From contig WGNN01000145.1 of NCBI GenBank assembly GCA_016124515.1, positions 1 to 37,612 on the forward strand: a DNA stretch of 37,612 nucleotides. Reading direction: 5' to 3'. The position numbers were made by a program, and so were the translations under genes. This document shows, in pieces, positions 2,777 through 27,200 of the stretch (position 1 is its first letter; every line of letters begins with the position of its first letter). The notes beneath the pieces were generated by a model. It was not told the origin of the DNA, ran no database searches, and saw nothing but the letters and a program-made list of their open reading frames with translations. This DNA comes from a bacterium. GTDB lineage: Bacteria; Bacteroidota; Bacteroidia; CAILMK01; JACPUW01.

Positions 2777-2892
2777 TTCACAAATATGTAAAAACAGCCC
2801 TGATATGGTTTAAAATGGACATTGGAAAAATATAGCTGTGTACTTTATACACTTTGTGTTTTTCAATTTAAAAAAAATATTACCTTAGCCAA

Positions 2893-2999
2893 GTCTTTAA
2901 GAGAAAGACACAATTTCAAAATTTTACTAACTCAAGATATAGGTCAACGCAGTTAGTCCCCTTGCGGTCAGGTTTGGGAGGTCCTGGCCGCTTTTTTTT
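2893..2999 (+). ncRNA. candidate structured small RNA of unknown family, three hairpins ending in an intrinsic terminator
   Basis: Hairpin 1 GTCTTT-AAGAG-AAAGAC (2893-2909); hairpin 2 ACTAACT-N18-AGTTAGT (2926-2957); hairpin 3 GCGGTCAGG-N10-CCTGGCCGC (2964-2991) followed by T8. No ORF; flanking genes are both on the minus strand; TACCTTAG (2881-2888) resembles the TAnnTTTG -7 box. Confidence 0.6.
2964..2999 (+). terminator. intrinsic terminator (9-bp stem including one G-U, 8 T)
   Basis: GCGGTCAGG TTTGGGAGGT CCTGGCCGC TTTTTTTT; no T tract on the opposite strand, so polarity is plus. Confidence 0.85.
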
Positions 3000-3017: not shown

Positions 3018-5888
3018 TTATTTGTTTTTGAGCTCCTGCTGCAGGAAACGTGCAGTATGGCTTGTTTTGTTTTTGGCTACTTGTTCGGGGGTTCCTTTGC
3101 AAACTATTGTTCCGCCATTGTTGCCCCCTTCGGGCCCCAGATCTATCACATGGTCGGCCAGTTTTATCACATCAAGGTTGTGTTCTATTATGAGAACCGT
3201 ATTTCCGCGGTCCACCAGTTCGCCTATCACATCCATCAATATTCTTATGTCTTCAAAATGCAAACCCGTGGTGGGTTCGTCAAAAATGTAGAAGGTATTT
3301 CCGGTATCGCGTTTCGATAGTTCGGTAGCCAGTTTTATGCGTTGCGCTTCGCCGCCGCTCAGTGTGGTAGAGCTTTGACCCAATTTTATATACCCCAGCC
3401 CCACGCTGTTGAGTGCTTCTAGCTTGCGTTTTATTTTGGGTACCGCCTCAAAAAAATCTACCGCCAATTCAATAGGCATTTCAAGCACATCGCTTATGGA
3501 GTGGCCTTTGTAGCGCACTTCAAGGGTTTGGCGGTTGTACCTTTTGCCCATGCATGAGGGGCAGTTTACATACACATCGGGCAGAAAATTCATTTCTATG
3601 AGTTTCATACCGCCGCCACCACATTCTTCGCATCGTCCACCTTTCACATTAAAAGAAAAGCGTCCGGGTGCATAGGCCCGTATTTTAGATTCGGGCAATT
3701 GGGCAAACAGGTTGCGTATTTCGGTAAAGACGCCGGTATAGGTGGCCGGATTTGAGCGCGGGGTTCTGCCTATGGGCGATTGGTCAATCTCTATTACTTT
3801 GTCAATAAGTTGCAGTCCATCAATGCTTTTGTAGGGCAAAACAGGTGCGTTGGATCGGTAAAAATGCCGCTTGAGTATGGGGTACAAGGTGCCATTGATA
3901 AGGCTTGATTTGCCACTGCCCGAAACCCCGCTCACACAAATAAGGCAGCCCAGGGGAAAACTCACATGTACATTTTTGAGGTTGTGGCCCGTAGCGCCTT
4001 TCAGCTCCAGTTTGTGGCCATTTCCTTTGCGTCGTTTGCTTGGTACTTCAATATTTTTTGCTCCCGACAAATAGGCTGCCGTGAGTGAACCTTGTTTCAT
4101 AAATGCCTTTGGAGCGCCTTCTGCTACCACTTTTCCGCCATTTACACCGGCACCGGGACCCAAATCCACAATGTAGTCGGCGGCCAACATCATGTCTTTG
4201 TCGTGCTCTACCACCAGCACGGTGTTTCCTACATCGCGCAGTTCTACAAGCGAGTTAATCAAACGCTCGTTGTCGCGCTGGTGCAGGCCAATACTGGGTT
4301 CGTCGAGTATATAGAGCACATTGGTGAGTTGCGAACCTATTTGCGTAGCCAGCCTTATACGCTGTGCCTCGCCACCCGAAAGGGTATAAGAGGGCCTGAA
4401 CAACGACAGGTAGTTGAGCCCTACGTTGAGCAGAAATCCGGTGCGGGCCTTTATTTCCTTTATTATTTCATGCGCCACAATACGCATATTGGGCGACACG
4501 GTTTCTTCTATTTGCGAGGCCCATTTGCCAAACTCATCAATTTGCATATTGCCCACTTCGCCTATGTGCTTGTCAAGAATTTTGAAATGCAGCGACTCTT
4601 TTTTCAAGCGGTTGCCTTCGCACTCGGGGCATGGACCGTAGGTAGAAATGCCTTGCAAAATTTCTACAAACTCTTTGTACCAGCCGTTGGTAAGGCATTG
4701 CTCAAAATAGCCCAACAAGCCTTGAAAATCAGTGCGTTCTGAAACCATGCCGTAGTCAATTTTGAGGTTGTCTATGCCGTGCAAAATCTCGTGCAGCACC
4801 GCCTCGGGGATGTCGCTTATTTTAGATTCGGGTTTTAGTTTATGGTTTTTGAGGATGGTTTTTATGCCATTTACAGTAGTAGAGTCAAGGTACTCGCGGT
4901 AGGGAAGCAGCAGGGCTTTGTTTACTGTTGCATTGCCGTTGCCCAAAAGGGCATCTATATCAAATTGGTATGAACTACCCACGCCACGGCATTTTGGGCA
5001 ATAGCCGTATGGCGAGTTGAACGAAAAAGTATTGGGTTGTGGTTCGTCGTAGGCAATTCCACTGTCAATGCACATCAGGTTTTTGCTGTAGGCAAGGGTT
5101 TCGTTGGTTTCGGGCAGGTGCACCATTATAAGTCCATTGCCTTCTTTCAGTGCCAGTTTCAATGAATCATTCAATCGCTCGGCTGCTTTTTCGCCCACTT
5201 TTATGCGGTCAACTACCAATTCTATGTCGTGCACTTGGTAGCGGCTCAGTTGCATTTTCGGCACCAAATCGGTCACTTCGCCATCAATGCGCATACGGGT
5301 AAAACCGTTTTTGCGGTAGCGCTCAAACAGCTCTCGGTAATGTCCTTTGCGACCCCTTACCAGCGGAGCAAGCAGCAAAATGCCCTGTCCGTTGAATTTT
5401 TCGGTAATCAGACTTTTTATTTCCTCCTCGCTAAAGCGCACCATTTTTTTGCCGGTCACGTAAGAGTATGGCTCGCCAATGCGTGCGTAGAGCAAGCGCA
5501 AAAAGTCATAAATCTCGGTAATGGTGCCTACGGTAGAGCGGGGGTTTTTGCTCACCGTTTTTTGCTCAATGGAAATTACCGGACTCAAACCGTTGATTTT
5601 TTCTACATCGGGCCGTTGCATATTGCCCATGAACTGCCTGGCATAGGCACTGAAACTTTCCATGTAACGCCTTTGACCTTCGGCATAAATGGTATCGAAA
5701 GCCAGTGAAGATTTGCCCGAACCACTAAGGCCGGTAAAAACCAGCAAGGCATTGCGCGGCAAGGTGAGCGATACATTTTTGAGGTTGTGCTCATTGGCAC
5801 CATATATTTCAATGAGGCCATCTTCTATCAAATGGGCGTTGTCGGCGGCTTTTTTCGGTGGTTTGCTTTTGGCTGTAGTTGTGGGCAT
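3018..5888 (-). CDS. uvrA: Excinuclease ABC subunit A
   Basis: 956 aa; two ABC ATPase modules ('TGLSGSGKSSLAFDTIYAEGQRRY', 'GVSGSGKSSLINGTLYP', 'TLSGGEAQRIRLATQIGS', 'TLSGGEAQRIKLATEL'), zinc-finger CxxC motifs. Confidence 0.98.
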   Translation of the reverse strand: MPTTTAKSKPPKKAADNAHLIEDGLIEIYGANEHNLKNVSLTLPRNALLVFTGLSGSGKSSLAFDTIYAEGQRRYMESFSAYARQFMGNMQRPDVEKINGLSPVISIEQKTVSKNPRSTVGTITEIYDFLRLLYARIGEPYSYVTGKKMVRFSEEEIKSLITEKFNGQGILLLAPLVRGRKGHYRELFERYRKNGFTRMRIDGEVTDLVPKMQLSRYQVHDIELVVDRIKVGEKAAERLNDSLKLALKEGNGLIMVHLPETNETLAYSKNLMCIDSGIAYDEPQPNTFSFNSPYGYCPKCRGVGSSYQFDIDALLGNGNATVNKALLLPYREYLDSTTVNGIKTILKNHKLKPESKISDIPEAVLHEILHGIDNLKIDYGMVSERTDFQGLLGYFEQCLTNGWYKEFVEILQGISTYGPCPECEGNRLKKESLHFKILDKHIGEVGNMQIDEFGKWASQIEETVSPNMRIVAHEIIKEIKARTGFLLNVGLNYLSLFRPSYTLSGGEAQRIRLATQIGSQLTNVLYILDEPSIGLHQRDNERLINSLVELRDVGNTVLVVEHDKDMMLAADYIVDLGPGAGVNGGKVVAEGAPKAFMKQGSLTAAYLSGAKNIEVPSKRRKGNGHKLELKGATGHNLKNVHVSFPLGCLICVSGVSGSGKSSLINGTLYPILKRHFYRSNAPVLPYKSIDGLQLIDKVIEIDQSPIGRTPRSNPATYTGVFTEIRNLFAQLPESKIRAYAPGRFSFNVKGGRCEECGGGGMKLIEMNFLPDVYVNCPSCMGKRYNRQTLEVRYKGHSISDVLEMPIELAVDFFEAVPKIKRKLEALNSVGLGYIKLGQSSTTLSGGEAQRIKLATELSKRDTGNTFYIFDEPTTGLHFEDIRILMDVIGELVDRGNTVLIIEHNLDVIKLADHVIDLGPEGGNNGGTIVCKGTPEQVAKNKTSHTARFLQQELKNK

Positions 5889-24165: not shown

Positions 24166-24192
24166 AAACAGCCCCAAAATGGGGCTGTTTTT
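24166..24192 (+). terminator. intrinsic terminator/attenuator between rplL and rpoB
   Basis: AAACAGCCCC-AAAAT-GGGGCTGTTT-TT, perfect 10-bp stem and T5 run (24188-24192). Confidence 0.8.
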
Positions 24193-24225: not shown

Positions 24226-27200
24226 TTGGCTAGAGGAAATCAAAACAGAATCAGCTTCGCATCGCTCAAGTCTCCTATAGAATATCCCGATTTTCTTGAT
24301 GTACAAATCAAGTCTTTTCAGGATTTCCTCCAATTGGAAACTTCTGCCGAAGAAAGAATTAACGAAGGGCTTTACAATGTGTTCGCTGAGAACTTTCCAA
24401 TAACCGATGCACGAAACCTTTTCGTGCTTGAGTTTATTGACTATTACATAGATCCGCCAAAATACGACGTGGAAGAATGTATAGACCGCGGACTTACCTA
24501 CAGCGTGGCTCTCAAGGCCAGGCTCAAATTATATTGTACCGACCCTGAACACGAAGACTTCGAAACCATCGTGCAGGATGTTTACCTCGGTACCATACCA
24601 TACATGACCGAACGGGGTTCCTTCATCATAAATGGCTCTGAGCGTGTCATCGTTTCGCAACTGCACCGCTCACCCGGTGTGTTCTTCAGTCAAAGTTTCC
24701 ACACCAACGGAACCAGACTTTACAGCGCCAGAATTATCCCTTTCAAAGGTTCGTGGATTGAATTTGCTACCGATGTAAACAACGTAATGTTTGCCTACAT
24801 CGACCGTAGAAAAAAATTCCCTGTTACCACTTTGTTCCGCGCCATTGGGTTTGAATCTGATAAGGAAATCCTTGAAATATTCAACCTTGCTGAAGAAGTA
24901 ACGGTAACTAAAGCCAAGCTAAAAGCCATATTGGGTAGAAAACTTGCGGCAAGGGTGCTCCGCAAATGGATAGAAGACTTTGTGGATGAAGATACCGGAG
25001 AGGTGGTTTCAATTGAACGTAACGAAATCATACTCGAACGCGATACCATACTTGAAGAAGACCACGTAGATCTGATTCTTGATGCCAACGTAAAATCGGT
25101 AATTCTGCATAAAGATGATTCTAACTCAAACGAGTTTGCCATCATCTACAACACCTTGCAGAAAGACCCGTCAAACTCAGGAAAGGAAGCCTTGGAGCAC
25201 ATCTACCGACAGTTGAGGAACGCAGATCCACCCGACGAAGAAACCGCGCGTGGTATCATAGATCGCTTGTTCTTTTCTGACAAAAGATACGACCTTGGCG
25301 AGGTGGGCCGCTACCGACTCAACAAAAAGCTCAACCTGAGCATTGATAGCGAACACCGCACACTAACCAATGAAGATATTATCAGCATTATCAAGTACTT
25401 AATTCAATTGAGTAATGCAAAAGCTGATATTGACGATATAGACCACCTTTCTAACAGAAGGGTAAGAACCGTGGGCGAGCAGCTCTACAACCAATTTGGT
25501 GTGGGCTTGGCTCGTATGGCACGTACCATTCGCGAGCGGAAGAACGTACGCGACAACGAGGCGTCTACACCTACCGATTTGATCAACTCAAGAACGCTTT
25601 CTTCAGTTATCAATTCGTTCTTTGGTACCAACCAGTTGTCGCAGTTTATGGATCGTATGAATCCATTGGCCGAAACCACGCACAAACGAAGAATGTCAGC
25701 ACTTGGACCTGGTGGTCTTTCGCGCGAAAGAGCGGGATTTGAGGTGCGCGACGTTCACTACACCCACTACGGTCGATTGTGTACCATTGAAACGCCTGAA
25801 GGTCCAAACATTGGTTTGATATCTTCACTCTCCGTATATGCCAAGATAAATGATATGGGTTTCATTGAAACCCCGTATCGCCGCGTGGAAAACGGAAGGG
25901 TTTTGATGGATGCCCCGGTTGATTACCTCAGTGCCGAGGAAGAAGACGAACACATCATTGCCCAGGCAAACGCGCTCGTAAATGAAGACGGCACTTTTGT
26001 TAACGACAAGGTAAAAGCACGACAAGGTGGTGAATTCATTGTGGTCGACATAGCAGAAGTTGACTACATGGACGTATCGCCAAACCAAATTGTGTCAATA
26101 GCCGCATCGCTTATTCCATTCCTTGAGCACGATGATGCCAACCGTGCCTTGATGGGATCAAACATGCAACGTCAGGCAGTTCCACTCCTTCGCGCCGAAG
26201 CTCCAATTGTGGGTACAGGTATAGAAGGCCGCGTAGCCAAAGACTCTCGTGTGATGATTGTTGCCGAGGGAACAGGTTATGTAGAGTATGTAGATGCCTC
26301 CAAAATAATAGTTTGCTACGACCGTACCGACAACGAAAGATTGGTTGACTTTGACGGCGACAGCAAAGTATATAAGATATCGAAATTCAGAAGAACCAAC
26401 CAAAACTCTTGTATCAACCTGAAACCCATTGTGCGCAAAGGCGAGCGAGTGGAAAAAGGACAGATATTGTGTGATGGTTTTGCTACCGACAATGGAGAGT
26501 TGGCCCTTGGCAAAAACCTGCTCGTGGCTTTCATGCCTTGGCAGGGATACAACTTTGAGGACGGTATCGTGGTGTCTGAGCGCATTGTGAAAGAAGATGT
26601 TTTCACTTCAATCTACATCAACGAGTTTGAGCAAGATGTGCGCGATACCAAACGTGGGGTAGAAGAGTTTACCAACGACATACCCAACGTAAGCGAAGAA
26701 GCAACCAAAGACCTCGATGAAAATGGTTTGATTCGCGTAGGTGCCGAAGTTGAAGAAGGCGACATACTTATTGGTAAGATCACGCCAAAAGGTGAAAGCG
26801 AACCAACGCCTGAAGAAAAACTCCTTCGTGCCATATTCGGCGAAAAAGCCGGCGACGTGAAGGATGTTTCACTTCGTATGCCACCTTCGGGCAAGGGAAC
26901 AGTAATCGACAAAAAACTCTTTACCCGCGCCAAGAAAGACAAGTCGAGCAAAGACAAAGACAAAGCACTTCTTCAAAAACTTGAATCATCTCACGAGAGC
27001 AACTTACTTTCTCTTAAGGAAAAGCTCGTTGACAAATTGCTTATCATAATCGAAGGCAAGGTGTCGCAAGGTGTATTCAATGTTTATAATGAGGAAATCA
27101 TTTCAAAAGGCTCTAAGTTCAGTGTCAAGTCGCTCATGGAGATTGATTACAACCTCATCAACCCAACCAACTGGACTACCGACGACGACAAAAACGAGCT

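Follow-up and report, generated by a model that had tools for sequence, protein, structure and literature searches.

A candidate stand-alone small RNA gene between uvrA and a nuclease gene in an uncultured Bacteroidota bacterium

Comparison with described small RNAs

The catalogue of small RNAs in Bacteroidota remains thin beyond Bacteroides and Flavobacterium. Rfp18 and other independent sRNAs of Flavobacterium psychrophilum are intergenic, are transcribed independently from sigma-A-type promoters, contain several stem-loops and are conserved in relatives (PMC9723704). The GibS-type intergenic sRNAs of Bacteroides thetaiotaomicron are trans-encoded regulators, in an organism without obvious Hfq or ProQ homologues (PMC7366714). 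A third RNA, 6S-Flavo (RF01685), is a stand-alone non-coding RNA of Bacteroidota, with a model of 108 positions.

The candidate described here is located between uvrA and a nuclease gene in an uncultured Bacteroidota bacterium, and the predicted RNA resembles Rfp18 and its companions in each of the features listed for them. This comparison is one of descriptions only, and Rfp18 differs in that its expression has been observed experimentally, its deletion has a phenotype and metalloproteases are its predicted targets (PMC9723704). GibS differs in having known targets, and Rfam gives no sequence relation between it and the present RNA. The likeness to 6S-Flavo is one of length and of stand-alone character, whereas 6S-Flavo forms one long bulged hairpin and the present RNA is predicted to form separate hairpins.

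The family had not been recognised in the first-pass annotation of this DNA, and the Rfam search agrees with that: no family in Rfam 15, 6S-Flavo included, reaches its gathering threshold at the locus. The Rfam matches in the window (the whole 37,612-nucleotide stretch analysed) are four tRNAs, all away from the locus. The best sub-threshold plus-strand match, suhB/mmgR (RF00519), shares a hairpin followed by a T-run, but at 13.7 bits against a threshold of 41 bits it rests on the terminator and was dismissed as chance. A genome-wide search for 6S-Flavo gave no signal; its controls were silent as well, making that search uninformative.

Predicted transcript, promoter and structure

The two neighbouring genes lie on the minus strand, as first annotated. 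On one side is a gene for a DNA/RNA non-specific endonuclease (PF01223, 1937–2776), and on the other is uvrA, encoding UvrA (3018–5888). The first-pass annotation had proposed that an independently transcribed sRNA of about 105–107 nt lies between them on the plus strand, and inspection of the sequence confirmed the position of every element that it had named: the -7 box, the three hairpins, the terminator with its T8, TCCC at 2957–2960 and GGGA at 2976–2979. The features are as follows.

2853–2856, plus strand: possible -33 element TTTG from a pattern scan; its 24-nt spacer is long and makes it weak
2881–2888, plus strand: -7 promoter box TACCTTAG, from the sequence, after the Bacteroidota sigma-A consensus TAnnTTTG
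2893–2999, plus strand: predicted sRNA transcript of 107 nt, its start taken from the box spacing and its end from the T8
2893–2909, plus strand: predicted 5'-terminal hairpin GTCTTT-aagag-AAAGAC (arms 2893–2898 and 2904–2909), from folding
2926–2957, plus strand: predicted central hairpin ACTAACT/AGTTAGT (arms 2926–2932 and 2951–2957) with an 18-nt loop and the conserved loop sequence CAAGATATAGGTCAACGC, from folding and alignment
2958–2963, plus strand: C-rich single-stranded linker CCCCTT, its CCC invariant in three genomes; a possible seed or pseudoknot partner, by inferred pairing
2964–2999, plus strand: intrinsic terminator with a 9-bp stem, the invariant loop TTTGGGAGGT and T8, from sequence and folding

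The -7 box of Bacteroidota sigma-A promoters has the consensus TAnnTTTG (PMC9723704; PMC7366714) and occupies positions -12 to -5 relative to the transcription start (PMC9723704). Homologues of the locus were found in the only two other genomes of the family that were examined, G001 from the same genus and G002 from another genus. The box is kept in all three, one step off the consensus, as TACCTTAG here and in G001 and as TACCTTGG in G002. Its distance to the 5' hairpin is also the same in the three genomes, and when the published spacing is applied the predicted +1 falls in each of them on the first G of this hairpin (G2893 here). The predicted RNAs are 107 nt long here, 95 nt in G001 and 113 nt in G002. 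A -33 TTG/TTTG is found 19 nt upstream of the -7 box in both homologues, whereas the nearest TTTG here is 24 nt away. We infer that the sRNA is transcribed from its own Bacteroidota sigma-A-type promoter, starting at about 2893. In the window as a whole TAnnTTTG occurs 12 times, whereas a first-order Markov model predicts 37. Such a threefold depletion is expected if the consensus is functional, and is consistent with the use of sigma-A promoters of the Bacteroidota type.

The RNA appears to end at a strong intrinsic terminator, present on the plus strand only, in which the stem GCGGTCAGG/CCTGGCCGC (2964–2972/2983–2991) encloses a 10-nt loop and is followed by T8 at 2992–2999. A simple terminator scan missed it because loops were limited to at most 8 nt. 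The 9-bp stem and the T8 are retained in the three genomes, with the stem 100% paired and a single U-G/U-A exchange. The loop, UUUGGGAGGU, is invariant. A plain terminator would not need an invariant loop, and this frozen loop is the odd feature of an sRNA that is otherwise ordinary in kind.

Folding alone is no better than chance in this genome (z = -0.96 against shuffled sequences; -2.83 and -2.06 for the two homologues). A GUC...GAC hairpin is found at the same 5' position in all three genomes, as GUCUUU-aagag-AAAGAC here, GUC-UUUU-GAC in G001 and GUCAAA-uuuau-UUUGAC in G002. In an ungapped reading this genome and G002 differ at three inner pairs, with both arms changed, whereas a MAFFT alignment favours indels. 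The compensatory changes looked for in the three stems are thus suggestive only in the 5' stem, and the core stems hardly vary among the homologues. In the central hairpin the 3' arm is invariant, and the 5' arm is shifted in G002 with pairing still kept. The comparison is therefore only a weak test of the predicted structure, since persistence of the 5' hairpin despite its changed sequence could stem from indels. The suggestion that CCC (2958–2960) and GGG (2976–2978) form an H-type pseudoknot is possible; both are identical in all three genomes, so variation neither backs nor counters this pairing.

Conservation, distribution and neighbouring genes

Lack of conservation among close relatives had been named beforehand as grounds for rejecting the proposal. 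Conservation proved to be strong: the homologue in G001 is 81% identical over 139 nt (E 8e-32) and that in G002 is 93% identical over about 80 nt (E 1e-25). The 3' core (2926–2999) is 92–96% identical in the two homologues, between flanks that, over 100 nt on each side of the sRNA, are 44–50% identical, and the element thereby rises above chance. The conserved island spans the region from the -7 box to the T-run and then ends. Among the neighbouring coding genes, identity is 68% for the nuclease in G001 and 73% for the MBOAT gene in G002, and no 74-column stretch of their coding alignments exceeds 82%.

Might the conserved stretch be a gene for a small peptide? One plus-strand frame is open across the core, but it contains no ATG, GTG or TTG before the TTG at 2962, just 5' of the terminator stem, and the 5' half has indels whose lengths are not divisible by three, making a peptide gene highly improbable.

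A covariance model of the RNA (R1) found a single copy per genome in these three and no match in nine other genomes of the order. A sample of 395 genomes of the class and another of 395 of the phylum, searched by covariance model under stricter filters that are able to lose diverged relatives, gave only the same three genomes. Plasmids, phages and viral contigs gave no match to the sRNA. Distant Bacteroidota loci reached by scanning genome contigs for the nuclease were without it, and in the order's other families no credible homologue lies around the nuclease homologues. Two further matches were set aside. A weak one in a more distant genome (G018) is chance AT-rich similarity at the end of an apparent coding region, and a second one in the host's own genome is a 25-nt similarity elsewhere. 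On present data the sRNA would thus be a single-copy locus limited to one family, as judged from three homologues.

The gene downstream of the sRNA differs in each genome (uvrA here, an EcoRII-N protein with a cytosine methylase in G001, a PD-(D/E)XK protein in G002) and converges on it in all three. In G002 the sRNA also adjoins the MBOAT gene. The search for a nuclease homologue in G002, an assembly that is 88% complete, was negative, yet the sRNA is present there. Because the downstream genes differ and always converge, and because G002 is without a detected nuclease homologue, the element is probably neither a leader nor a 3' UTR, nor does it seem to accompany the nuclease; it behaves as an intergenic unit independent of its neighbours.

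The restriction-type neighbours in G001 (locus L004, 1826–3126) are an EcoRII-N-like restriction protein and a C-5 cytosine methylase, directly 3' of the sRNA in the place that uvrA takes in the window.

The same arrangement bears on a reading without any functional RNA, in which a terminator and promoter region serves the neighbours, for example by shielding uvrA from convergent transcription. The site is indeed flanked by units in convergent arrangement, and a strong terminator closes it. A terminator would not need the conserved loop and the 38 nt of conserved sequence upstream, however, and the element is unchanged beside different downstream neighbours; furthermore, a T-run on the plus strand cannot end transcription of uvrA. 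We regard this reading as very unlikely.

Three species share the promoter box, the position of the 5' hairpin, the core and the terminator, whereas their downstream neighbours are different. On this basis we propose, with a probability of roughly 0.85, that the element is a real stand-alone sRNA gene of a family absent from Rfam, and the independently transcribed RNA first suggested is upheld as a prediction of about 107 nt.

Possible mode of action and significance

The stand-alone sRNA would begin right at its 5'-terminal hairpin, which probably shields the RNA. The central hairpin would then display its conserved loop, followed by the C-rich linker, and the strong terminator with its unusually invariant loop would end the RNA at about 2999. 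Most likely it acts in trans by base pairing, and the segment that contacts mRNAs would be the AUAGGUCAAC loop, the CCC linker or the GGGAGG loop of the terminator. The architecture and the analogy with Rfp18 and GibS make trans base pairing the best default, at about even odds.

The target searches gave no candidate mRNA. Three conserved segments were used to look for near-perfect antisense sites in the three genomes, and such sites were no commoner than those for reversed-pattern controls; the 5' regions of divergent neighbour genes showed no unusual pairing with the sRNA. A predicted duplex upstream of rpoB (z -2.8, one of 24 tests) was rejected, as it falls on a terminator-like hairpin before that gene. 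This hairpin, AAACAGCCCC-AAAAT-GGGGCTG with a T-run (24166–24192), lies just 5' of an rpoB-sized open reading frame at 24226, and is possibly a terminator or attenuator within the ribosomal protein–rpoBC cluster.

6S and CsrB RNAs act by sequestering protein, and the main rival to trans pairing is that the present stand-alone RNA does likewise, binding through a surface formed by the invariant terminator loop and the possible CCC/GGG pseudoknot. About 60 consecutive nucleotides, the terminator loop included, are near-invariant, which is more than short seeds need, and antisense sites are not in excess. Against this, neither 6S-Flavo nor any other family in Rfam matches the RNA, which has no repeated protein-binding motif, and the recent common ancestry of the three genomes may inflate the invariance. 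Protein sequestration is considered distinctly less probable than trans pairing.

The element gives a candidate sRNA family that is sharply bounded, conserved and narrow in distribution, with its promoter, length and core defined. The frozen loop raises the question of whether this terminator does more than terminate. It is conceivable, if rather unlikely, that the 3' end is a functional module, in which the active site is the invariant loop, maybe joined to the CCC linker as a pseudoknot, and works by protein binding or by opening on target invasion. If true, the sRNA would have an architecture not yet described, in a phylum where the members studied have no obvious Hfq.
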